This document shows positions 13,371-26,829 of a stretch of 64,000 nucleotides of DNA, piece by piece. The translations under genes were made by a program, and so were the position numbers. The DNA is taken from assembly GCF_000015045.1 (NCBI RefSeq), contig NC_008609.1:1355001-1419000 (forward strand), in the 5' to 3' direction. Below the pieces are notes generated by a model. That model saw nothing but the letters and a program-made list of their open reading frames with translations, made no database searches and was not told the origin of the DNA. How positions within the stretch are numbered: position 1 is the stretch's first letter; each line of letters begins with the position of its first letter. This DNA is from Pelobacter propionicus DSM 2379 (lineage in GTDB: Bacteria > Desulfobacterota > Desulfuromonadia > Geobacterales > Pseudopelobacteraceae).

Positions 13371-16300
13371 TTAACGTCCCCGTACCTCCACCTTCCACGC
13401 CCGGCTCTCCCCGCGCAGTTCAGGCTGGTACATGGGCCAGACCACCGCCGGCAGCGCCGTGATCCTTCCCTCCAGTTCGGGATAGATCACGTGGCGGAAC
13501 TCATGCCGTCCCGCCGGCAGACTGGTGACGAAGAAGGCCATGCGCTCGTCGCGGCGCTCGCGGTGCGCGTACCAGTCGAAGAAGGCCGTTTCGTCCCTGA
13601 AACGCGGGTCGCGATCCGCCTCGCGCGATTCGAACCCGGCCGGCAGGCGGTCCTCGATGATCACGTACTCCAGCGCCCGGTCGTTGTCCACGGTCAGGCG
13701 CACCTCGATATCGTCTCCCGGGCTGACCGGCTGGTCTGCGGCCAGGGGAGTGAGCTCGCGTCGCCAGCCCTCCTGTGTCTTGACGGAGTTGATGCGGTAC
13801 ATGCTGCGGGTGATCTTCAGGCCGGGGGATGACTGCACGGCCTCGGGAGGAACGGCGTACTCCAGGGTCGCGGCCAGATAGGCGGCACCGCCGTCATCCT
13901 TTGTCAGTTTCAGGGTGTTGTTCCCGCTCTTCAGGGCTGCTGCCGTGATGCAAAGCTGCCGTTCTCCCGCCACCAGCCTGCCCTTCTCCACGCGGTAGTC
14001 GGCCAGTTTCTTGCCGTTTACGGCCAGGGTCGCGCTGTAGCTGGCAGTGCTTTCGCCGCTGGCCGCCACATAATCGGCCAGCGCTACCACTGCTGCCGCC
14101 GATGATGTGGTGGTACGCCACCAGCCGCCACTCTGGCGGCGGGCCAGAAATTCCGCCAGCCTGGCCGCCAGCGGGTCGGCGGGGTTCTGCTTCACCACCA
14201 GTGACAGCAGGCCGGAGGTGGTTTCCACTGCCGAAGAGCCCCAGCGCCAGCCGTACCACCAAGAATCCGCGTCCCTGTCCTGGATATAGGCCGCTGTCCC
14301 CTCATGGCGGATATTTCGCTTCAGCTCATCCAGCAGGGGGGGGAGCGCATCGTTCCGGCCGGCAAAAGCCAGCCCTTGGCAGAAGGCCAGCTGATCCGCC
14401 GTGGTCAGTTCCCCCCACTCCAGGCGGATCCGCTGCTCCAACTCTTCCTTGTCGATAGCGTTGACGGCAAAAGCCCGGAAGGCGCGGGCCTGGTCTCCGG
14501 CCGGGGCGTTGCGCAGCAGGCTCTCCAGGGCCTGGGTTCCCCGCTGTACCATCCCTGGCGGGATGGGCAGTCCGGCCCGTTTTGCCAAACCAAGGGCGTA
14601 GAGGGCATGGCTGGTCATGGTCAGGCTGCTGCTGTCCCGCTCCCACCAGCCCCAGCCGCCATCCGCGTGCTGCATCTCCTCCAGCCGCTTCATCCCCTGA
14701 TCGATGGCCGATGCCAGCTTTTCCTGTGTTGCCGGGTCCGGCTGCCAGCCCTGTTGGGAGAGCAGGGCGCGGGCGTGCAGGGCCGGGATGAATCGCGACA
14801 GGGTCTGCTCGACGCAGCCGTAGGGAAACTGCACCAGTCGGCTGATGGCGCTGTCCAGGCTGGCGGCGATGGTGGGGGAGAAAGAGATCTTCAGCTCCCC
14901 TGAGCCGGGCAGGGCGTTGTCCGGCAGGGTCAGCGTCTCATCCCCCTGCCGCTCCCTGAGGGCGATGCCGGTAGCGGCCGTGCGGGGTATGCCCCGTTCC
15001 AGCACCGGCAGGGTCAGCTCCATGGCATCCGCTCCCTGTTCTCCCCTGGCCATCAGTTTCAGGGTGGCATTGCCGGCCCGCTCGGCCTTGAGCGCCATGT
15101 CGCGGCGCAGCGTCCCGCGGGGAGCTAGTTCTCCGCTGAAATCCGTACCCTTCAGCAAGGTCAGGCCGCTGGCTTCGAAGCGCCCCCTGACCGTCTGTTG
15201 CCTGTCGGCCATGCTGGTGAGCAGCCCCGGAATTTTCAGTTCGTCCCCCACGGTCAGGAAGCGGGGAGGGGAGAGCCGCGCCATCAGTCCCAGGCGGGCG
15301 ATGAACTTCTCTCGCCCCGTACCGAAGTCGCTGCTGAGGGTTTGGCCAACGGCTGTTGCCCGCCAGGTGGTCAGGTTGTCCGGCAGGGTGAACTCGGCCG
15401 TGGCGCTGCCGTCAGCGTTCGTGGTCAGCATCGGTTGCCACAGGGCGGTATCCTTGAAGGTCTTGCGGCTCTTCACCCCCTTAAGGCCATCATCTTGGGC
15501 GGTCAGTGCGGCCCCATCCTTGGCTGCGCCTCCCAGGTAGACGCGGGGGAAAGAGTGCAGGGTGGTCACCAGGTGCTCGCGGTTGCCGCGGAAGAAACGG
15601 TAGATGTCATCGCCCCGTTCGGGCGCCACGGCGAAGATAGCCTCATCCACAACTGCCAGGGACAGCTCGGCAGGCACCTGCTTTCCCTCCGCCGTGGGGG
15701 AGATGGTCAGGCGCACCCGGTCCCCGGGAGCGTAGACCGGCTTGTCAGCCCTGACCCTGATGTCCAGCTTGCCCGGCTGGATATCCACCCGCAGGGGGAG
15801 GGTGCGGCTGAAGAAGCGTCCGCCGCGTACCGTCACCGCCGAGACATGCATGAACGGCGCATAGCTCTCGCTCACCGGGATCTCCACCACCTGCAGGTTG
15901 TTCTTCAGCACGATGGTGCGGCTGTTGTGGATCTCCCGTCCCTCCAGGGTCAGCAGCAGGGTGCCGCCGCTGCCCGGTGTGCGTACGATCAGGCGGGCCG
16001 TGTCGCCCGGTTTGTAGGTTTTTTGGTCGAATTCCGCCTCCAGGTCGCGTTGGGGCCCCTGCCAGTCATCCCCTTCCTTCCAGACCCAGATCAGGGCGTC
16101 GGCCGTTGAGGTGCGCCCGGCCTGGTCGGCGGCCCGGCCCCTGACCCGCCACAATCCGGGGTGGGGGAAACGGTAGCTGGTCTGGGCCCTGCCGCTCACG
16201 TCCGTCGTCAGGCTGACGGAGCCTGACCGCTTCCAGGAGTGGGAGCGGCTCTTCCCGTCGTAGATCTGCTGCTCGAATGCCAGGTTCAGCGGCACTGCCC

Positions 16301-18521
16301 GGGGATTCCCCTCCCAGTCGGCCGCGGAGAGGCTTACCTCCACCGCCTGACCCGGCTTGGTCAGGTAGGAGCTGGTTGTGACCTTCAGCGCCACCAGGGA
16401 GGGGACAACTGTCAGGGAAGAAGAGGATGATACCTGGCGCGAGGAGGCGTCGGTCACATCCACCTCCAGGGTGTAGCTGTGAGGCATGTCATGGCTCTTG
16501 GCCGCAACCGGTATCAGCGCCTCGCCCTTGTCATCCAGGCGCAGTTCCCCTTCACCGATGAAGTCTGCGTATCCGCCGGAGGAGCGCTCTTCGTCGTCAT
16601 AGCCGTCGCTGTCCCTGCCTAGTTCCGCAGCAGGCCTGCTGTAGATGCGCCAGTTGACCCTGGCGTCGGCCAGTGGGGCCCCGAAGTAGTAGCGGCCGCT
16701 CAACCTGACCTGTGCCGTCTCCCCCGTCACCAGGAAGCGGCGGTCGGGTGTCAGTTGCAGCTCGAACTCCGGTTTTCGGTACTCCAGCACCCTGAACCAC
16801 CCCTGCCAGGACTCATTCCCGGCAGATGCGTTGATGGTATAGCCGCCCAGGGATGCTCCCCGTGCCAGGGCGCATTCCCCCTGGAACGAAGCGCCTGACG
16901 ACAGGGGGGCGTCATGTTCGCAGACCGTCTTGTCGCCGCTGTCGCTGATGGTCACATGTATGCGGTCGAGCTTTGGCAGGGTGTAAGCGTCCCCATCCCC
17001 GCGCTGACGCAGGACCCCCTTGTAGTAAACTGTCTGACCGGGGCGGTAGGCGGGACGGTCGCTGTAGAGATACCCCCTGGTCGTGGCAGCCTGGGTTTCC
17101 CCGGAGCCCAGCTCCAGGAATGCCAGGCTGTCGCCCAGGCGTCCGGTCAATGTCCGCGCCGAGCCGGTCGTATCCCAGGTGGCCATGCCGTTGGCATCGC
17201 TGGTTGCCTGTGTCCCGGACTGTGTCGAGCCGATGGTTACCCCGGCGAGCGCCCTGCCGCTGACCAGGTCGGTGGCGTACAGTTGTGTGCCCTTTGGGGA
17301 CGTCTTGGCCACCAGCCCCAGGCGGGTCACCAGGAAGCCGAAGCGGGCCGTTGCTCCGCTGCCCTTCAGCTCCAGCAGGTAGGCGCCCGGCTTCAGTCCC
17401 GGGATGGGGACGTGGGCGCTGCGGGAGTGGCCGTATCGCCGCGCCGGGAAAGTCAGCGGATAGCTGGTCAGTTTGTGCAGGTATCCGGTGGGGATGCCGT
17501 CAGGCTGGCGCAGGTCGACCTTACCCGTCAGCAGGGGCGCGCTGTCAATCGCGGAGATCACCGCCTCGGCCTTCTCCACCCAGAGGCCATGGGTGCGCAG
17601 CTTGAGCGCCCTGTCCGGCAGGAAGACGTCGCCGTACTCCTCGATGGTCAGCCAGGGGGGCTTTACCTCCGGTCGCAGGGTCAGGGTGCGCTGCTCCCCC
17701 TCCTGGAGCCTGACGACCTCCCTGGTGCCGTTCAGCCGCTCATCCGAGGGGAAGAGGGAATAATCGCCGGGGGGGAGGTCGTTGAACACGGCAACGGAGC
17801 GGCCGGCGGTTGTTGCCGAACGGTAGAGGGAATCTCCGGAGAAACTCAGGTTGATGCGTTCCAGCGGGCGGCCAGCCCCGTTCCGGGGAATGACCGTGAC
17901 GCTGAGCGTGGCGGCGCGGCGCATGACCAGATCGCCCAGATCCTTTTTCTCGGCCGGGTCCAACTGGATGTAGGCGCTCTTTTCCAGTACCCAGCCGGGG
18001 TGCTGGAGTCGCGGCTCGTACCCCTGGCTGTCCAGGCCGGTTATGGTGAAACGGCCGTCACTGCCGCTGACGCTCCCAACCCAGCGGCTTGCCACGATTC
18101 TGACCCCCGGCATCGGCCTGCCGCCCCCGTCCACCAGCCGTCCGGACAGCTCGGCCTGTCTGTGCAGGTAGGCGCTGAGCGTCTCCGTTTGCCTGGAGCT
18201 GACCGACGCCCCTCCCTCGAAGAGCCCGTAGCCATCCTTCCTCACCAGCCAGGTATAGTAGCCCGGTTTGAGATCCACGTTGAAGCGCCCCTCGCTGTCG
18301 GACGTGGCAGTGGCTGCGCTGGTCAAGGGAACCTTCATCCCCCTGTTTTCCATGAAGGTGATCGTTGCCCCCTTCACCGGACGGTTGGTCTCGGCGGAGA
18401 TGATGGTTCCGCTAACGCTGACCTGTTTGGCGGTTTGGGGGGGCTTGCCCCGGGCGGCCCAAGCTGCTGCCGGTATCAGGGTCATGATCAGCAGGGTAAA
18501 CAGAATGCGGATCGTTTTCAT
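13371..18521 (-). CDS. Giant bacterial alpha-2-macroglobulin family protein
   Basis: A 1,716-aa exported protease trap. The start at 18521 is preceded by AAGGAG and gives a signal peptide (MKTIRILFTLLIMTLIP...AWA) without a lipobox Cys, so it is predicted periplasmic, not lipid-anchored. Up to three carboxypeptidase-regulatory-like beta domains occupy about residues 30-230 (GTIISAETNRPVKGATI; GRLVDGGGRPMPGVRI). MG2-type sequence (SDRPAYRPGQTVYYKGVLRQ) follows near residue 490, then the A2M core (LWQPMLTTNADGSATAEF), a thioester motif CVEQ with Cys at residue 1236, and a C-terminal MG10-like domain. The usual partner pbpC is absent; AMMECR1-like and VanW genes follow upstream. Confidence 0.93.
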   Translation of the reverse strand: MKTIRILFTLLIMTLIPAAAWAARGKPPQTAKQVSVSGTIISAETNRPVKGATITFMENRGMKVPLTSAATATSDSEGRFNVDLKPGYYTWLVRKDGYGLFEGGASVSSRQTETLSAYLHRQAELSGRLVDGGGRPMPGVRIVASRWVGSVSGSDGRFTITGLDSQGYEPRLQHPGWVLEKSAYIQLDPAEKKDLGDLVMRRAATLSVTVIPRNGAGRPLERINLSFSGDSLYRSATTAGRSVAVFNDLPPGDYSLFPSDERLNGTREVVRLQEGEQRTLTLRPEVKPPWLTIEEYGDVFLPDRALKLRTHGLWVEKAEAVISAIDSAPLLTGKVDLRQPDGIPTGYLHKLTSYPLTFPARRYGHSRSAHVPIPGLKPGAYLLELKGSGATARFGFLVTRLGLVAKTSPKGTQLYATDLVSGRALAGVTIGSTQSGTQATSDANGMATWDTTGSARTLTGRLGDSLAFLELGSGETQAATTRGYLYSDRPAYRPGQTVYYKGVLRQRGDGDAYTLPKLDRIHVTISDSGDKTVCEHDAPLSSGASFQGECALARGASLGGYTINASAGNESWQGWFRVLEYRKPEFELQLTPDRRFLVTGETAQVRLSGRYYFGAPLADARVNWRIYSRPAAELGRDSDGYDDEERSSGGYADFIGEGELRLDDKGEALIPVAAKSHDMPHSYTLEVDVTDASSRQVSSSSSLTVVPSLVALKVTTSSYLTKPGQAVEVSLSAADWEGNPRAVPLNLAFEQQIYDGKSRSHSWKRSGSVSLTTDVSGRAQTSYRFPHPGLWRVRGRAADQAGRTSTADALIWVWKEGDDWQGPQRDLEAEFDQKTYKPGDTARLIVRTPGSGGTLLLTLEGREIHNSRTIVLKNNLQVVEIPVSESYAPFMHVSAVTVRGGRFFSRTLPLRVDIQPGKLDIRVRADKPVYAPGDRVRLTISPTAEGKQVPAELSLAVVDEAIFAVAPERGDDIYRFFRGNREHLVTTLHSFPRVYLGGAAKDGAALTAQDDGLKGVKSRKTFKDTALWQPMLTTNADGSATAEFTLPDNLTTWRATAVGQTLSSDFGTGREKFIARLGLMARLSPPRFLTVGDELKIPGLLTSMADRQQTVRGRFEASGLTLLKGTDFSGELAPRGTLRRDMALKAERAGNATLKLMARGEQGADAMELTLPVLERGIPRTAATGIALRERQGDETLTLPDNALPGSGELKISFSPTIAASLDSAISRLVQFPYGCVEQTLSRFIPALHARALLSQQGWQPDPATQEKLASAIDQGMKRLEEMQHADGGWGWWERDSSSLTMTSHALYALGLAKRAGLPIPPGMVQRGTQALESLLRNAPAGDQARAFRAFAVNAIDKEELEQRIRLEWGELTTADQLAFCQGLAFAGRNDALPPLLDELKRNIRHEGTAAYIQDRDADSWWYGWRWGSSAVETTSGLLSLVVKQNPADPLAARLAEFLARRQSGGWWRTTTSSAAAVVALADYVAASGESTASYSATLAVNGKKLADYRVEKGRLVAGERQLCITAAALKSGNNTLKLTKDDGGAAYLAATLEYAVPPEAVQSSPGLKITRSMYRINSVKTQEGWRRELTPLAADQPVSPGDDIEVRLTVDNDRALEYVIIEDRLPAGFESREADRDPRFRDETAFFDWYAHRERRDERMAFFVTSLPAGRHEFRHVIYPELEGRITALPAVVWPMYQPELRGESRAWKVEVRGR

Positions 18522-18583
18522 GAGGGACTCCTTGGTTGTTGGTAGGCTATCCGATAAGCCCGACGAGGCAGGAGAGGATGCCA

Positions 18584-19201
18584 TCACCTGTCGATGCCTC
18601 TCGTGGAGATGGCCATGGCCCTGAAGCGGCTCACCCGCACGCTGGACGGGTCGTTCTCCCCCAGCCTGGCCAGGGCCTGGCGGAAGGCCCAGCTGGCGGT
18701 GCGTGCCTCGCCCGGGACAAAGGCCATGCCAGCATCATTACCTTCCACAAACATCCCCTCCCGCAGCGGATCGATGGCACGGTAGTCCGCCACCCGCTCC
18801 GGTTGATCCAGGGGGAAGGTGATCTGCACTCCCGTTGCCTGGGCTGTTTCGCGACTCAAACCGCGGCTGCGGGGATCATTTTTGAGCGCCAACCGGACGT
18901 TGTCGGCGATCTCCTCGGCCAGGCTGGCCCGGCGCGGGATGAAACCGCCGAAACAGGCCACAACCCGCCTGCCCTGAAAAAAGGTGACGAAGCAGGCCTG
19001 CTGTTGCCGTGTCGCGCATGGGGGAGGGGGGGGGAGGGAGACGCCATCCAGTCGGGCCAGCAGGCAGGCGCGGGCGTACTCCACGAGGGCGGATGATTCT
19101 GTCGCGGTGAAGCGCGGTGGTGTCGCCCATACCGTTGATATGCCGGCGAACATCAGGAAGGGTATGGTCAAGAGCGTAATCGTTCTTTTGGCTTTGCTCA
19201 T
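18584..19201 (-). CDS. Exported AMMECR1-domain protein
   Basis: A 205-aa protein with a signal peptide (MSKAKRTITLLTIPFLMF...WA). The rest matches the AMMECR1 fold: ACFVTFFQGRRVVACFGGF corresponds to the family's redox-type motif FVTxxxxxxLRGCIG, followed by LAEEIADNVRLALKNDPRS and VQITFPLDQPERV. The biochemical function of AMMECR1 is unknown and the proteins are usually cytosolic, so the signal peptide is notable. It lies 62 bases upstream of the alpha-2-macroglobulin gene, same strand, and is likely in one envelope operon with it. Confidence 0.75.
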   Translation of the reverse strand: MSKAKRTITLLTIPFLMFAGISTVWATPPRFTATESSALVEYARACLLARLDGVSLPPPPPCATRQQQACFVTFFQGRRVVACFGGFIPRRASLAEEIADNVRLALKNDPRSRGLSRETAQATGVQITFPLDQPERVADYRAIDPLREGMFVEGNDAGMAFVPGEARTASWAFRQALARLGENDPSSVRVSRFRAMAISTRGIDR

Positions 19202-20410: not shown

Positions 20411-21556
20411 CTATTCCAGAAATCGGGTAAAGACCTGGTTGGAGAGCAGCATGCCGCGCCTGGTCAGGTGCACTCCTCTGTCGTCCATGGCCAGTAGCCC
20501 CAGACCTGTCAGCTCCTCCAACTCCTTACCGAAACGCTCCTTCATCTCCATTCCGAATTCCCTCCGGAAGTCGCTGAATGTCACCCCGTCCAGCATGCGC
20601 AAGCCCAGGAACATGAACTCTGCCAGGGCATCGTCGTCTGAAATCTCGGTCATCTCCTGTCGGGGTAACTGGCCACGAGTGATGGCGGCTGCATACTCGT
20701 CGACGTCGCTACTGTTGGCGAAGCGGAGGCCGTGGCCGGTGCCACGCAGGAATGAGTGGGCGCCGGCCCCCAGCCCCAGGTAGCCGTCGCGCCTCCAGTA
20801 GCCGCTGTTGTGTCGGGAACGAAAGCCGGGGAGGGCGTAGTTGGCGATCTCGTAATGCTCGTACCCGGCAGCGCCCAGCAGGTCATCGGCGGCTAGGAAC
20901 ATGTCGGCGGACAGGTCTTCGTCCGGCAGGTCACGGTCATGGGTGTAGCGTTGGGCGAAGGGGGTGCCCTCCTCGATGGTCAGGCCGTAGACCGACAGGT
21001 GCTCCGGCGCCAGATCCAGGGCACGCTCCAGGTCGTGGCGCCACATCTCCATGGTCTGTCCCGGCAGGGCATGGATCAGGTCGATGCCGATGTTAGCGAA
21101 CCCGGTCGCCCGGGCCGCCTTCACGGCCTGTTCTGCCTGGGCCGCCGAATGGATCCGCCCCAGGCTGGCCAGCATGCGGTCGTCTAAGGACTGCACCCCC
21201 AGGGAGAGCCGGTTGACTCCTGAATGGCGGAAGCCCGCCAGCTTCGCCCTGTCGATGGTGCCCGGGTTGGCCTCCAGGGTGATCTCGGCATGGGGCAACA
21301 GGCTAAACAGGGTGTCGGCCAGGGAAAGTATCCGTCCGATCTGGTCGGGTTCCAGCAGGGACGGAGTTCCTCCGCCGAAGTAGACCGACTCCAGGGGGCG
21401 GCCGGACGGAATCCCGGCATGGGCCAGGCGCATCTCGGCCTGCAACAGTTCCACGTATGCCTCCCGCCGGGCTGGGGAGCCCTCCTGGGAGATGAAGGCG
21501 CAGTAGGGGCACTTGTGCAGACAGAAGGGGATATGGATGTAGAGGCGGGTGAACAT
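20411..21556 (-). CDS. hemW: HemW-like radical SAM protein
   Basis: A 381-aa radical SAM protein of the HemW/HemN branch, now regarded as a heme chaperone or coproporphyrinogen-oxidase-like factor. It starts MFTRLYIHIPFCLHKCPYCAF, placing the CxxxCxxC iron-sulfur motif at residues 12-19. Other motifs are YFGGGTPSLL, EANPGTID, NRLSLGVQSLDD and the C-terminal winged-helix-like HemN domain. The start at 21556 is chosen over upstream Met codons because the family begins here and AAGGAG lies 11 bases away. The true HemN oxidases are longer, so HemW is preferred. Confidence 0.9.
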   Translation of the reverse strand: MFTRLYIHIPFCLHKCPYCAFISQEGSPARREAYVELLQAEMRLAHAGIPSGRPLESVYFGGGTPSLLEPDQIGRILSLADTLFSLLPHAEITLEANPGTIDRAKLAGFRHSGVNRLSLGVQSLDDRMLASLGRIHSAAQAEQAVKAARATGFANIGIDLIHALPGQTMEMWRHDLERALDLAPEHLSVYGLTIEEGTPFAQRYTHDRDLPDEDLSADMFLAADDLLGAAGYEHYEIANYALPGFRSRHNSGYWRRDGYLGLGAGAHSFLRGTGHGLRFANSSDVDEYAAAITRGQLPRQEMTEISDDDALAEFMFLGLRMLDGVTFSDFRREFGMEMKERFGKELEELTGLGLLAMDDRGVHLTRRGMLLSNQVFTRFLE

Positions 21557-22040
21557 GGGGAAGGTAACTCCTTTTCGGTACTCTGACTGCTCACCGCGTC
21601 GGGCTGTCCCGCAGTCGGTTACGGAGGCTTTCGCACCCTGATAGTGACCCATGGCGGGCAATGGCGCAATTCATTTTTCCGCCGGATGTGCATGCCTTCC
21701 GCTGCTTCTGCGGGAAAGCGACCGGTTGCAGATATGCCGCGACTATGCCTCTCCACCGCTACTGCGACCCATGTTCATCCGTGTCGTGCGCGACCCGGCA
21801 ACCTTGGACCAGATCGTTAGTCGTGTATTTATTGAATGTTTTAATTTACAAGTTGTCAGAGAGTGGTATGTTTTCTTCGGAAAACCACCGCTTTTGTTGG
21901 CCGGGAATTCATGATCAGGCTTGACGCTTGTGTACGCCTCGATGCCGATCAGCCGGGAATAAAGTGGTTTTGGTTTCAATCGAAAACCAGCAGACAGGTG
22001 CCCCGTGGGGGCGCCTCGTAGTGCGAAAAAGGAGATCGTT
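21557..22040. other. 484-bp intergenic region between divergent genes
   Basis: No convincing gene. It holds the divergent upstream regions of hemW and the protease-hydrolase gene. An AT-rich stretch at about 21820-21870 could contain promoter elements, but no clear -35/-10 pair could be picked. A ribosome site (AAAAAGGAG) for the next gene ends it. Confidence 0.5.
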
Positions 22041-24107
22041 ATGCCGAGCACACCTGACGCCAACCGCACCTTTGATGCCCGTCCCGACCGTATCGACTAT
22101 CGCGACCGGGTCTACAATCCGCCACTGGTCTGTCTTCCCGAGCAGTACCCCTCACCGGAGTTCATTGAAAATCACCTGGCCGACTACACCAGAAAGCACA
22201 AGCTGATCCTGAATCAGGGCAAGGAGGGGGCCTGTACCGGCTTCGGGCTGGCCGCGGTCATCAACTACCTGCTCTGGAAGGAATGTCTGGAAGCGGGGAA
22301 GGATGGCGGCAGGAGCGTGTCCAGAATTGCCAGGGTCAGCCCGCGCATGCTCTACCACATGGCTCGTATCTATGATGAATGGCCGGGCGAGGACTACGAG
22401 GGATCCAGTTGCCGCGGTGCCATGAAGGGGTGGCATCGCCATGGTATCTGCACGGAACAGTTCTGGCCGTACAAAACCAAATTCGTTCCCCCCAAGGAGG
22501 GGTGGCAGCAGGATGCGGCGCGGCGGCCGCTGGGTGCCTATTACCGTATCAACAAGGATTCCATCGCCGATATGCAGGCGGCCATCAGAGAGGTGGGAGC
22601 AATCTATGTGTCGGCCTCGGTCCACAAGGGGTGGTCTCTCGGTGCATCGTCAACTCTACCGATGATTCCGTTTACGACGGAGGTTGCCGGCGGCCATGCC
22701 TTTGCCATAACCGGATATACCACCCGGGGCTTTATCGTTCAGAACTCCTGGGGAGATGGATGGGGCTGTCTGGGATTCGCCATTCTGGGCTACGAGGACT
22801 GGATTCGCAACGGTTCCGATGCCTGGGTGGCGGTGTGCGGAGCTCCCATGGAACTGGTGGATGCGGTGCGTACCCGCACCAGCCTGAGCCTGCATGATGC
22901 GGTCAGCGGCAGGGCCGAGTGGTCCTGGTCTTCGGACAGCACCGCCATCCCCTATGCCCATGCCACTCCCGCTGTGCACCCCTGGAGCGAGGGGGAGGCC
23001 TATGAGCATTCCCTGGTGCTGGGAAACGACGGTCGCCCCATCAACCGCTTTCTCGATGTGGCGGATGCGGTTGCTGGGGTCCGGGAAGCAGCGCTTAATC
23101 TTCCCCTGGCCTGGCTTGGCGGGCAGCAGAAGCCGATCATCGCCATCTACGCCCACGGCGGCCTGAACGACGAGGAGGCTTCCATAAAGCGGATCCGGGT
23201 GATGGGACCCTACTTCCGTGAGAACGGAATCTATCCGCTCTTCGTAACCTGGAAAACCGGTTTCGGGGAGAGCATCTCCGGCATCCTCGATGATGCCGTG
23301 TCGAAGTATTTCAAGACGTCAGAGGGAGAACTTTCACGCGGATTCTGGTCCGAAGTGAAGAATCAGTTGCAGGAAGCCAAGGACCGTTCCGTGGAGCTGG
23401 CCTGCGAAAAGCTGCTGGTCAAACCGGTCTGGATGCAGATGAAGCAGAATGCGGCTGCCGCGGTGGAGCGTGACGCTGGCCTGGCGCTGCTGGCCGGTCA
23501 CCTGGTGGAACTGAAGCAGCGCATCCCTGCGCTCCAGATCCATCTGGTGGGACATTCTGCCGGCTCCATCCTTCACGGCCACCTTTTGGACCAGTTGACT
23601 CAAAAAAAGCTCCAGGTCGAAAGCCTGTCCCTGTACGCCCCGGCCTGCACGGTCGGTTTTGCTCTGGAGCATTATGCCTCGGCTGTGAAGAAAAATATCT
23701 TGTCGAAAGAACGGTTTTTCTTCGATATTCTCAGTGACGAACGGGAACTGGCCGATACGGTCGGTCCGTACGGCAAGTCTCTGCTGTACCTGGTCAGCAG
23801 GGCGCTGGAGGATGTGCACAAGATGCCGCTGCTCGGCATGGAAGCGGCCTGGAATCCGGCGGTGGAATCTAAAGAATTGTGGAACGCCAGGAAAACGGTC
23901 GACGTCGCCCGCTGGCGCACGTTCATGGGGGGAATGCAGACGGTCAGGGTTCATACCAAGGAACGGGCGAAGGTGTTCGACGGCCAGGAGTATATCTCAC
24001 TTGCCCATGGTTCCTTTGACAACGACGTGGAGGTGGTGGCCGCCACCCTGAGGAGGATTCGCGGCGAAGAACTGGCGGTTAAGGTGGAAAACCTGCACGG
24101 ATTCTGA
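22041..24107 (+). CDS. Papain-like (C1) cysteine protease fused to an alpha/beta hydrolase-like domain
   Basis: A 688-aa two-domain protein; no named family is recognised for the whole. The start at 22041 follows AAAAAGGAG. Residues 50-270 carry a C1 peptidase catalytic set: Gln59, Cys65 in NQGKEGACTGFG, His219 in GGHAFAITGY and Asn235 in QNSWGDGWG, the papain order and spacing. From about residue 360 the protein becomes a serine-hydrolase-like fold: IIAIYAHGGLNDEEA, then LVGHSAGS with the nucleophile Ser506. No signal peptide is visible, so it is predicted cytosolic unless exported by another route. It is monocistronic, followed by the terminator at 24325. The substrate is unknown. Confidence 0.75.
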   Translation: MPSTPDANRTFDARPDRIDYRDRVYNPPLVCLPEQYPSPEFIENHLADYTRKHKLILNQGKEGACTGFGLAAVINYLLWKECLEAGKDGGRSVSRIARVSPRMLYHMARIYDEWPGEDYEGSSCRGAMKGWHRHGICTEQFWPYKTKFVPPKEGWQQDAARRPLGAYYRINKDSIADMQAAIREVGAIYVSASVHKGWSLGASSTLPMIPFTTEVAGGHAFAITGYTTRGFIVQNSWGDGWGCLGFAILGYEDWIRNGSDAWVAVCGAPMELVDAVRTRTSLSLHDAVSGRAEWSWSSDSTAIPYAHATPAVHPWSEGEAYEHSLVLGNDGRPINRFLDVADAVAGVREAALNLPLAWLGGQQKPIIAIYAHGGLNDEEASIKRIRVMGPYFRENGIYPLFVTWKTGFGESISGILDDAVSKYFKTSEGELSRGFWSEVKNQLQEAKDRSVELACEKLLVKPVWMQMKQNAAAAVERDAGLALLAGHLVELKQRIPALQIHLVGHSAGSILHGHLLDQLTQKKLQVESLSLYAPACTVGFALEHYASAVKKNILSKERFFFDILSDERELADTVGPYGKSLLYLVSRALEDVHKMPLLGMEAAWNPAVESKELWNARKTVDVARWRTFMGGMQTVRVHTKERAKVFDGQEYISLAHGSFDNDVEVVAATLRRIRGEELAVKVENLHGF

Positions 24108-24324: not shown

Positions 24325-24352
24325 AACCTGGGCACGATAGCGTGCCCAGGTT
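24325..24352 (+). terminator. Rho-independent terminator
   Basis: AACCTGGGCACG pairs perfectly with CGTGCCCAGGTT around ATAG, followed by TTGATTTTG. It is 218 bases after the protease-hydrolase stop, within the 400-base gap 24108-24597, where no gene is seen. Confidence 0.75.
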
Positions 24353-24597
24353 TTGATTTTGTTTCCGGAACACTGGATGCACGATTCCGTTTACATGTGC
24401 ACGCCGGACACATTTGTCTTGAGTCAACTCGCCCGCCTGCCGAAGTGAACAGTACTATGCCGCCTTAAAGGGTTGCAACTGCGCGGAAACTATCGGATTC
24501 GGCGTTAATGAATATTGTGGACACTGGTGACTCCGCGATGATACATTCTAACCATGCACATTCAAAAGGACTGGATCGATACACAAGGAGTCAGGTT

Positions 24598-25860
24598 GTG
24601 AAACAATCAATCCGGCGCCATATTGGCAGAATTCTGTTGGATGGCAGGTTTTTGTCACAGCGGAGCCTTGATGCTGCCCTGGAGGAACAGAAGCGAACCA
24701 AGGAACTTCTGGGGCAGGTACTGGTCAGGATGGGGCTGCTGGGGGCGGATGATGTCAGGCTCCCGCTCATGGTGCAGGGACATCTGGGCTCTCTCTCCGA
24801 TGCGGTGAAAATTGCCGCCGGCGAACGACAACTGCTGGGCGAACTGCTCGTGCAATCGGGGCGCATCACCGGCGAACAGCTTGACTTCGCAATCTCCGAA
24901 CAGCGGCGAAGCGGCGAAAAGCTGGGCGAGGTGTTCAAGCGTCTCGGCATGCTCACGGAAAGGCAGTTGAACGCCCTTCTTGACGTACAGTTAAACCAGG
25001 GGGGCGCCGGCGATTCTCCCCTCAGGCTGGGTGAGCTTCTGGTCGCGACGGGGCATATTACCCGCGAACAGCTGGAATTTGCGCTTCAGCGGCAATCACT
25101 GACCCATGGCAGGCTTGGTGAAATACTTGTAGAAGCGGGGTATGTCCGTTCCAGCCGTGTCAAGTATGGCATTCGCCTGCAGAAGATGCTGATGAATGCT
25201 GTTCTTGCCGCCGTGGTTTCCCTTGAAATGGGTGCGGTAGCCACTGCCAGTCCTCTTTCCGATTCCGCTACCCAGAACATCATGGAGAGCGCGCTCAACG
25301 AATCGGGAGAATTCGCGTGTCTCTCGGCAAAGGAAAGGGAGCTGTACCGGCTTGTGAATGAATATCGCGAAAGCCATGGACTGCCACCGATAGTCAATTC
25401 ACGCTCGCTGAACAAGGTCGCTCGCGTGCATGCCATTGATCTCTGCAAAAACCAGCCAGCCGAAGGAGCAGACAACCGTGGCCTGGCCTGTTCGTTGCAC
25501 AGTTGGTCGGATAAGGGGGCCTGGAAACCGGTCTGCTATACGAAGGATCATGCGTTTGCCGAAGCAATGTGGGACAAGCCACGCGAGATCACCAATTTCA
25601 CCTATATAGGAGATGGCTACGAAAATGCTTATTCCACCAGTGAAAAAGAGGTCAATCCGGCGCGTGTGCTGGAGGCCTGGAAGGCGAGCCCGAGCCACAA
25701 CGCAATCCTCCTCGAATCCGGTGACTGGAAGGGGAGCAACCTTCTGGCTTTCGGTGTCGGTATCCATAAGAACTATGCTGTTATGTGGGTTGGCTCTTTG
25801 ACAGATCCCCTCGGTCCGATGCAGGCTTGCGTGACAGCGAAAAACTATGCGATGAAATGA
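24598..25860 (+). CDS. MshEN-type repeats fused to a CAP (SCP/PR-1) domain
   Basis: About 420 aa. I place the start at the GTG at 24598 because AAGGAG lies 7 bases upstream; ATG codons at 24508 and 24538 are in frame but lack a ribosome site. Residues 5-195 hold about three tandem helix pairs of the MshEN/GspE-N type (HIGRILLDGRFLSQRSLDAAL; LLGELLVQSGRITGEQLDFAI; RLGELLVATGHITREQLEFAL), modules that bind cyclic di-GMP in MshE-type ATPases. A hydrophobic segment near residues 197-220 precedes a CAP domain (KERELYRLVNEYRESHGLPP; ARVHAIDLC; WKASPSHNAILL). Predicted topology is cytosolic sensor and exported CAP domain. The next gene encodes a PEP-CTERM protein. Confidence 0.75.
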   Translation: MKQSIRRHIGRILLDGRFLSQRSLDAALEEQKRTKELLGQVLVRMGLLGADDVRLPLMVQGHLGSLSDAVKIAAGERQLLGELLVQSGRITGEQLDFAISEQRRSGEKLGEVFKRLGMLTERQLNALLDVQLNQGGAGDSPLRLGELLVATGHITREQLEFALQRQSLTHGRLGEILVEAGYVRSSRVKYGIRLQKMLMNAVLAAVVSLEMGAVATASPLSDSATQNIMESALNESGEFACLSAKERELYRLVNEYRESHGLPPIVNSRSLNKVARVHAIDLCKNQPAEGADNRGLACSLHSWSDKGAWKPVCYTKDHAFAEAMWDKPREITNFTYIGDGYENAYSTSEKEVNPARVLEAWKASPSHNAILLESGDWKGSNLLAFGVGIHKNYAVMWVGSLTDPLGPMQACVTAKNYAMK

Positions 25861-25932
25861 ATCTCTGACATGCGTTGGCGCATGTCGATGCATTGACTCT
25901 GTTTGAAGAACCGTGCCATGGGAGACAACAAC

Positions 25933-26829
25933 ATGCCAGACAAGAGGCAATATAAGGCCAGAAAGCCGCTTGCCGGCTTCACTAACCACCGGTGGGGCGT
26001 GGCAGTGCTTGTTGTGCTGGCGCTTGTGGCGACAGGTCTCCTGATGAGGTCATTTCTCATGAACGGGAAGGGTGTTTCGCGCGAAACACCCGTGCGATCA
26101 GTCGTGCAGAAGAGCCAGGAGCCAGTCGATGCCAGCAGTGAAATCGACGGGAAGTATTACGGGCTGTGCAAGAAAAACAGCATTCACTCGGTGGAGGATT
26201 TCCGCACTACGGTCCGAAACGATCCGGTGCTGGCCGCCCACTTCGCCGGGTTCAACTGGGATAACGCCAGGCTTGGGAAACAGGATAAGCCGGTATGGAC
26301 ATATGTTTCCTACAGAAAGGGTGAGGTTGTCAGGCGGACAACAAGGGCGGTCAGGCTGCCCAAAGGTGATGGCTATGTTACCGACGGAACCCATATGGTC
26401 CGCACCTACTGCTGCAATGACTATGTTGCTGCCCCCGCTCCGAGGGGGACGGGACCGGAAGATCCCGTTGAACGGGTTGACGCTCCTCCCCGTCGGTTGA
26501 ACAAACCAGAGTCTGCCGATGATCTTCCTCAGCAGGTGGCGTCCTGGTCGCCCGAAGATGATCCGACACACGTTACCCCCGAAACCCTCAATCGGGTCCC
26601 CCGCGACTTGGGGTTGCCCCTCTTTTGGGGCCCCGGCCATTCTTCAGACCCGTCACGCTCCCCTGATGATCCCGGTTTTGGCCAGTACTCGTCACCAAAG
26701 CCTCCCCCCAATCATGTCGTGACCCCTGAACCGGGCACATTTTTTCTGCTGGGGACGGGTTTGGGCGCCTTTGGTCTCTTCTCGCTGTTTCTTCGCAGGC
26801 GGGCAAAATCCCCTGAGAGCACAAACTGA
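25933..26829 (+). CDS. PEP-CTERM sorting-signal protein
   Basis: 298 aa of unknown function. The C-terminus is a textbook PEP-CTERM signal: VTPEPGTFFLLGTGLGAFG, a hydrophobic segment, then RRRAKS. Such proteins are processed by exosortase EpsH-type enzymes and are usually surface or extracellular-matrix components. A membrane segment near residues 20-40 (WGVAVLVVLALVATGLL) lies at the N-terminus. The middle is Pro/Asp-rich, with a Cys pair (YCCNDY) and no recognised domain. The start at 25933 is preferred because GGAG is 8 bases upstream. No exosortase gene is in the window. Confidence 0.72.
   Translation: MPDKRQYKARKPLAGFTNHRWGVAVLVVLALVATGLLMRSFLMNGKGVSRETPVRSVVQKSQEPVDASSEIDGKYYGLCKKNSIHSVEDFRTTVRNDPVLAAHFAGFNWDNARLGKQDKPVWTYVSYRKGEVVRRTTRAVRLPKGDGYVTDGTHMVRTYCCNDYVAAPAPRGTGPEDPVERVDAPPRRLNKPESADDLPQQVASWSPEDDPTHVTPETLNRVPRDLGLPLFWGPGHSSDPSRSPDDPGFGQYSSPKPPPNHVVTPEPGTFFLLGTGLGAFGLFSLFLRRRAKSPESTN

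Follow-up and report, generated by a model that had tools for sequence, protein, structure and literature searches.

A papain-like peptidase fused to a divergent alpha/beta hydrolase in Pelobacter propionicus, with caspase and nuclease-type neighbours in some relatives

In a 64,000-nucleotide stretch of Pelobacter propionicus DSM 2379 (NC_008609.1, positions 1,355,001 to 1,419,000; hereafter the window) we found a gene whose product joins an N-terminal papain-like (C1) peptidase to a C-terminal alpha/beta hydrolase, both active sites being complete in the one chain as far as the sequence can tell. In some bacteria this fusion recurs beside genes for caspases and antiviral nucleases, which suggests a role in cell killing or defence rather than in digestion; we tentatively regard it as a cytosolic two-enzyme lytic effector of the bacterial conflict or regulated-cell-death kind, a reading to which we would give a little less than an even chance. 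As no partner gene adjoins the window gene, this model is carried over to it from its relatives. A search of open-access PubMed Central full text found no published description of a fusion between a C1 peptidase and an alpha/beta hydrolase.

The open reading frame was confirmed where the original prediction had placed it, with its ATG at 22041, its stop at 24107, 688 codons in between and an AAGGAG ahead of the start (Table 1); the mechanically longest frame of the gene begins at a GTG at 22005. GC content is 59.6% in the gene and 58.6% over the whole window. On one side lies a divergent HemW-like gene (20411–21661, reverse strand), and on the other a CAP-domain protein is encoded 400 bp downstream, with a hairpin at 24325–24352 in between; the fusion gene is for these reasons probably monocistronic. 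It had been credited with a terminator of its own, and a hairpin with a U-rich tail is indeed there, although shuffled versions of the region yield no fewer terminator-like sites. The downstream CAP protein (24508–25860, forward strand; 450 residues) has an odd composition, its CAP (SCP-like) domain being preceded by three matches to the model of a cyclic-di-GMP-binding (MshE-related) domain, and is adjoined by a PEP-CTERM-like protein (25903–26829). Elsewhere in the window, a 1738-residue protein on the reverse strand (13371–18587) resembles by eye a bacterial alpha-2-macroglobulin (YGCVEQ motif). PADLOC, which holds no model of the fusion itself, gave no match for the window protein or for the four neighbours scanned alongside it, and membership of a known defence family was rejected on this blank result. 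A phage or viral origin was likewise rejected, as two phage records matched in the C1 domain only and viral contigs gave a single short match.

Table 1. Features of the fusion gene and its product, in window coordinates
Feature	Position	Strand	Evidence
CDS, C1-alpha/beta-hydrolase fusion protein, 688 aa	22041..24107	+	ORF list, full-length homologues
Ribosome-binding site AAGGAG ahead of ATG 22041	22029..22034	+	sequence
Intrinsic terminator-like hairpin, 12-pair stem, U-rich tail	24325..24352	+	about 220 bp past stop
C1 peptidase domain, xylellain-type, residues 6-268	22056..22844	+	Pfam PF00112, 3ois, structure Z 23.1
Gln59, oxyanion-hole residue	22215..22217	+	72/72 invariant
Cys65, catalytic nucleophile	22233..22235	+	72/72 invariant
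His219, catalytic base	22695..22697	+	72/72 invariant
Asn235, catalytic Asn (QNSWG)	22743..22745	+	72/72 invariant
Interdomain linker, residues 270-315, variable, largely low-confidence	22848..22985	+	pLDDT about 35-60 over residues 271-310; poor conservation
Alpha/beta-hydrolase domain, residues 316-688	22986..24104	+	model pTM 0.83, fold matches
HGG motif, residues 372-374, probable oxyanion loop	23154..23162	+	alignment
Helical insert / possible lid, residues 408-475, incl. long helix	23262..23465	+	low pLDDT, model
Ser506, nucleophile elbow GHSAG	23556..23558	+	71/72, 1 unreadable
Glu569 to Asp572, invariant acids, candidate catalytic acid	23745..23756	+	72/72 each
His656, candidate catalytic His (HGSFDND)	24006..24008	+	71/72

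The Pfam Peptidase_C1 model scored 32.6 bits on the window protein (cut-off 20.7), and the best solved relative of this domain was xylellain (3ois, E = 1.4e-9). An AlphaFold model of the fusion had a mean pLDDT of 76; its residues 6–268 superposed on the PDB structure of xylellain with a Z of 23.1 (rmsd 3.1 over 232 residues), and on cathepsins with a Z of about 18–20. Superposition of the model on xylellain and papain would bring the Cys, His and Asn into proximity. The catalytic set originally proposed, Gln59, Cys65, His219 and Asn235, was recovered at exactly these positions, and each of the four is present in all 72 homologues of the conservation set, which bear both domains. By profile, catalytic set and fold alike, the N-terminal domain belongs to papain family C1A. 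A secretion signal is usual for cathepsin-type C1A members but is not a strict requirement in bacterial ones. Hydropathy analysis found neither a signal peptide nor a transmembrane segment in the fusion protein (highest 19-residue mean 1.14, with a hydrophilic N-terminus), in agreement with the earlier claim that a signal peptide is lacking, and a secreted digestive cathepsin was ruled out on this basis.

For the C-terminal domain, a profile search against PDB sequences gave nothing significant (best E = 0.04), and the best curated family for the window protein was DUF900, at an E-value of only 0.16; across the family, 12 of 20 members matched this Pfam model at E-values up to 1 (best 3.3e-5). 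When residues 316–688 were modelled alone with AlphaFold, from an alignment of 10 relatives, the pTM was 0.83. The best 50 rows of a VIA structure comparison with this model were almost all alpha/beta hydrolases (Z 10.1–12.3); Foldseek returned nothing under E = 0.001, its best rows, all above that value, including DDHD, cutinase and the A. fulgidus lipase. On the evidence of the model the domain is a divergent alpha/beta hydrolase, and structure prediction thus bears out both of the anticipated folds.

The serine-hydrolase elbow was also correctly foreseen: the serine of GHSAG is Ser506, present in 71 of the 72 homologues, with an unreadable X in the remaining row. Glu569 and Asp572 are each found in 72 of 72, and His656 in 71, the exception being locus L095. 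Ser506, Glu569 or Asp572, and His656 are thus candidate catalytic residues; the HGG at 372–374 is the likely oxyanion loop and the helical insert at 408–475, as modelled, may be a lid. Since the catalytic residues are kept in 71–72 of 72 two-domain homologues, the alignment indicates that both active sites are under selection, and at this level the expectation that a single cytosolic chain carries two catalytic domains holds. In the caspase-richest Sulfurovaceae subclade (L089–L095) the His372 of the HGG motif has been lost, and the hydrolase may work differently there. This loss, together with that of His656 in L095, could be taken to mean that the hydrolase part is changing, and that one of the two domains is merely binding or regulatory and leaves a single real activity (e.g., a C1 peptidase with a hydrolase part that serves to bind a lipid signal); given that Ser506, Glu569, Asp572 and His656 are otherwise kept at 71–72 of 72, and that the four C1 residues are conserved likewise, we consider this very improbable.

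Close relatives over the whole chain occur in Geobacter, Planctomycetales, Pseudomonadales, Sulfurovum, Hydrogenophaga, Desulfobacteraceae and a Deltaproteobacteria MAG placed in Myxococcota, and plasmid-borne copies in Ideonella, Sinorhizobium, Rhizobium, Microvirga and Eleftheria. The hydrolase profile matched in 17 of 175 Sulfurovaceae, 30 of 349 Burkholderiales and 19 of 343 Planctomycetota genomes, frequencies of ~5–10% that are rough rates from a sampled genome set; both domains are present in 5 of 57 near relatives. Nearly all of the hydrolase-bearing genes that were read keep the two domains in this order, C1 in front. In a tree of 75 hydrolase domains the one from the window protein groups with those of two Geobacter loci (L002 and L007) and then with that of Planctomycetales locus L003, a mixing of phyla such as gene transfer would produce; the wider clade is sister to the Sulfurovaceae clade that is linked to caspase and MBL genes (support 95/97).

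Our neighbourhood survey covered 81 loci, the genes of unannotated ones being called by a simple longest-ORF script. No neighbour gene recurs across the whole family in these loci; the recurrent ones are lineage-bound, and a shared operon was ruled out on the ground that they are confined to single lineages. At most loci, including the window, the fusion gene is solitary, and family searches of the window gene's own neighbours found no caspase, MBL or murein hydrolase adjoining it. This solitary state, seen in most genomes including those of the window and its near relatives, would suit a housekeeping or catabolic enzyme, intracellular or released on lysis, that degrades proteins and esters or storage material and has no part in conflict; ordinary metabolic genes are often the neighbours, and at one locus the fusion adjoins a matrixin-like metallopeptidase. 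Such an enzyme would, however, be oddly patchy within families (5 of 57 near relatives with both domains; 30 of 349 Burkholderiales), and the fusion has been coupled to caspases more than once independently, caspases usually being regulators and not digestive enzymes; we think a catabolic role possible, though unlikely. A 1162-residue protein that combines two AAA+ stretches with an FtsH-type M41 peptidase domain is encoded downstream of the fusion in genome G625 (L149:10638–14126, forward strand), and a conserved protein of ~600 residues with no Pfam match directly downstream in two Planctomycetota genomes (L190:3920–5719, reverse; L191:6584–8380, forward). In three related genomes (L097–L099) a gene for a Sel1-repeat protein (domain tested in L099) follows at +1 after a few bases, its product being a possible regulator or immunity protein.

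A caspase gene stands at -1 on the same strand at 7 of the 81 loci, namely L009, L088, L089, L090, L093 and L094 in Sulfurovaceae and L157 in Burkholderiales, and the catalytic His and Cys of the linked caspases are intact (GHG, DSCHSG). Caspases make up 7 of 172 adjacent same-strand genes versus 1 of 634 far genes (Fisher p = 1e-4), a comparison in which the loci are phylogenetically non-independent and the caspase model was built from the same hits. Six of the nine caspase-linked cases belong to one Sulfurovaceae clade, and on the tree the caspase-link label changes at least twice (three times by parsimony). At two further Burkholderiales loci, L171 and L172, the caspase is part of the same protein, at the end of the chain after the hydrolase; in L172 an Amidase_2 domain takes the place of C1 at the front, and the front of L171 is homologous to it, under threshold. 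After each of these caspase-hydrolase genes (L171:8835–11816, forward; L172:4658–7594, reverse) comes, on the same strand, a gene for a protein of 620–641 residues whose H-E-V-T-H motif suggests, by eye, a possible metallopeptidase. A VWA-domain protein is encoded upstream in L009. The only caspase-domain match in the window genome (G000) lies in a 631-residue open frame ~200 kb from the fusion (C3:1172508–1172873, L059).

An MBL gene lies upstream of the fusion at three Sulfurovaceae loci, at -1 in L005 and at -2 in L009 and L088, where the caspase gene is in between and the order is MBL-caspase-fusion. The PADLOC model LmuA matched the MBLs of L005 and L009 (1.1e-79 and 7.4e-72), as did the RTasMBL and Avs1a models, and that of L088 was assigned by homology and by an LmuA match at the corresponding position in G378. 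Anywhere in the genome, an LmuA-type MBL is present in 8 of 71 carriers; none was found in the window genome at E ≤ 1e-20. The links to murein hydrolases belong to Burkholderiales and rhizobial relatives: PG_binding and GH19 domains are fused ahead of C1 in L154 and L157 and PG_binding also in L155 and L156, while at -1 there is an Amidase_2 gene in L035 and L164 and a PG_binding gene in L160.

The proposal that the fusion is a conflict enzyme is therefore upheld through relatives only (caspase at -1 at 7 of 81 loci, MBL at three, two caspase fusions), most loci including the window having neither; the neighbours of homologues did yield caspases and defence-type MBLs, in a minority. Less survives of the suggestion that it is linked to secretion. 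An effector secreted or injected without a signal peptide, through a T6SS, another injection system or membrane vesicles, and acting on rival cells would explain why no signal peptide is present; the fused murein-hydrolase modules and the lipase-like domain do resemble antibacterial effector activities, and the Sel1-repeat gene directly follows the fusion in L097–L099 as an immunity gene might. The T6SS sheath gene VipB, however, was not found in the window genome or in 58 of 69 carriers (present in 11, searched genome-wide), by which a T6SS effector was rejected, and no delivery gene was seen next to the window gene; we regard delivery into rival cells by any route as improbable.

If the fusion is a cytosolic lytic effector, the hydrolase would do the damage by attacking ester bonds, in membrane lipid or elsewhere, a target suggested by its fold neighbours, which are lipases, phospholipases and esterases. 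The papain domain could be a switch, inactive until a trigger and then cutting either a partner or the linker or lid of its own chain. Plausible partners are next door in Sulfurovaceae, as the upstream caspase might be able to cut the fusion and the MBL would be of the protease-activated type; in Burkholderiales and rhizobial relatives the fused or adjacent murein hydrolase would fit the breaking open of cells. We speculate further, with more doubt than conviction, on an immune or regulated-lysis effector in which the papain-like protease replaces the trypsin-like one of nuclease-protease pairs: a trigger (the caspase, where linked) would lead to activation of a partner pro-nuclease where present and to release of the fused lipase-like domain, and with them to a joint attack on DNA, on the membrane and, in some lineages, on the cell wall. 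If true, this would add papain-like peptidases to the trypsin- and caspase-like enzymes that act as activating proteases in bacterial immunity, and would give a testable role to a widespread gene whose present name is just "C1 family peptidase"; even without an immune role, a conserved fusion with two active sites, found in several phyla and with no published description that we could find, is a well-defined target.

Among single-domain enzymes, xylellain (3ois) has the same catalytic set as the fusion and its N-terminal segment aligns too, but the fusion chain goes on into a hydrolase domain of 373 residues. Lipases and esterases (A. fulgidus lipase, lysosomal PLA2, dienelactone hydrolase and, weakly, DUF900) have the fold, GHSAG elbow, HGG loop and late His in common with the fusion hydrolase, which differs in its long helical insert, in being preceded by a C1 domain in almost every member and, in the window protein, in having no curated family match better than the DUF900 one (E = 0.16). 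In VMAP conflict systems, caspase domains always have a neighbouring alpha/beta-hydrolase gene (Kaur et al. 2020, PMC7159879), and alpha/beta-hydrolase domains of the VMAP kind have been assigned to membrane-lipid hydrolysis (PMC8195603). Some relatives of the fusion resemble these ternary systems in having a caspase beside or fused with an alpha/beta hydrolase, whereas the fusion hydrolase carries a C1 peptidase and no caspase is near the window gene. According to a 2025 study (PMC12799240), a partner protease switches on the MBL pro-nucleases of Hachiman and AVAST, caspases do likewise for the nuclease of canu loci, and further nuclease homologues are co-located with proteases of other families. 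With the MBL-protease pairs of Hachiman, AVAST, Lamassu and DRT (PMC12799240) our family shares, at three loci (L005, L009, L088), an immune-type MBL just upstream, and also a protease placed N-terminally to a second enzyme; the protease is trypsin-like there and papain-like here, the fused enzyme here is an alpha/beta hydrolase, and no immune-type MBL was found in the window genome. As in canu loci (PMC12799240), caspase and MBL genes occur together in L009 and L088, but in the order MBL-caspase-fusion and with the C1-hydrolase protein as an extra component. By analogy, the Sulfurovaceae loci would thus fit the protease-activated-nuclease pattern of that study (PMC12799240), with a papain-like protease.
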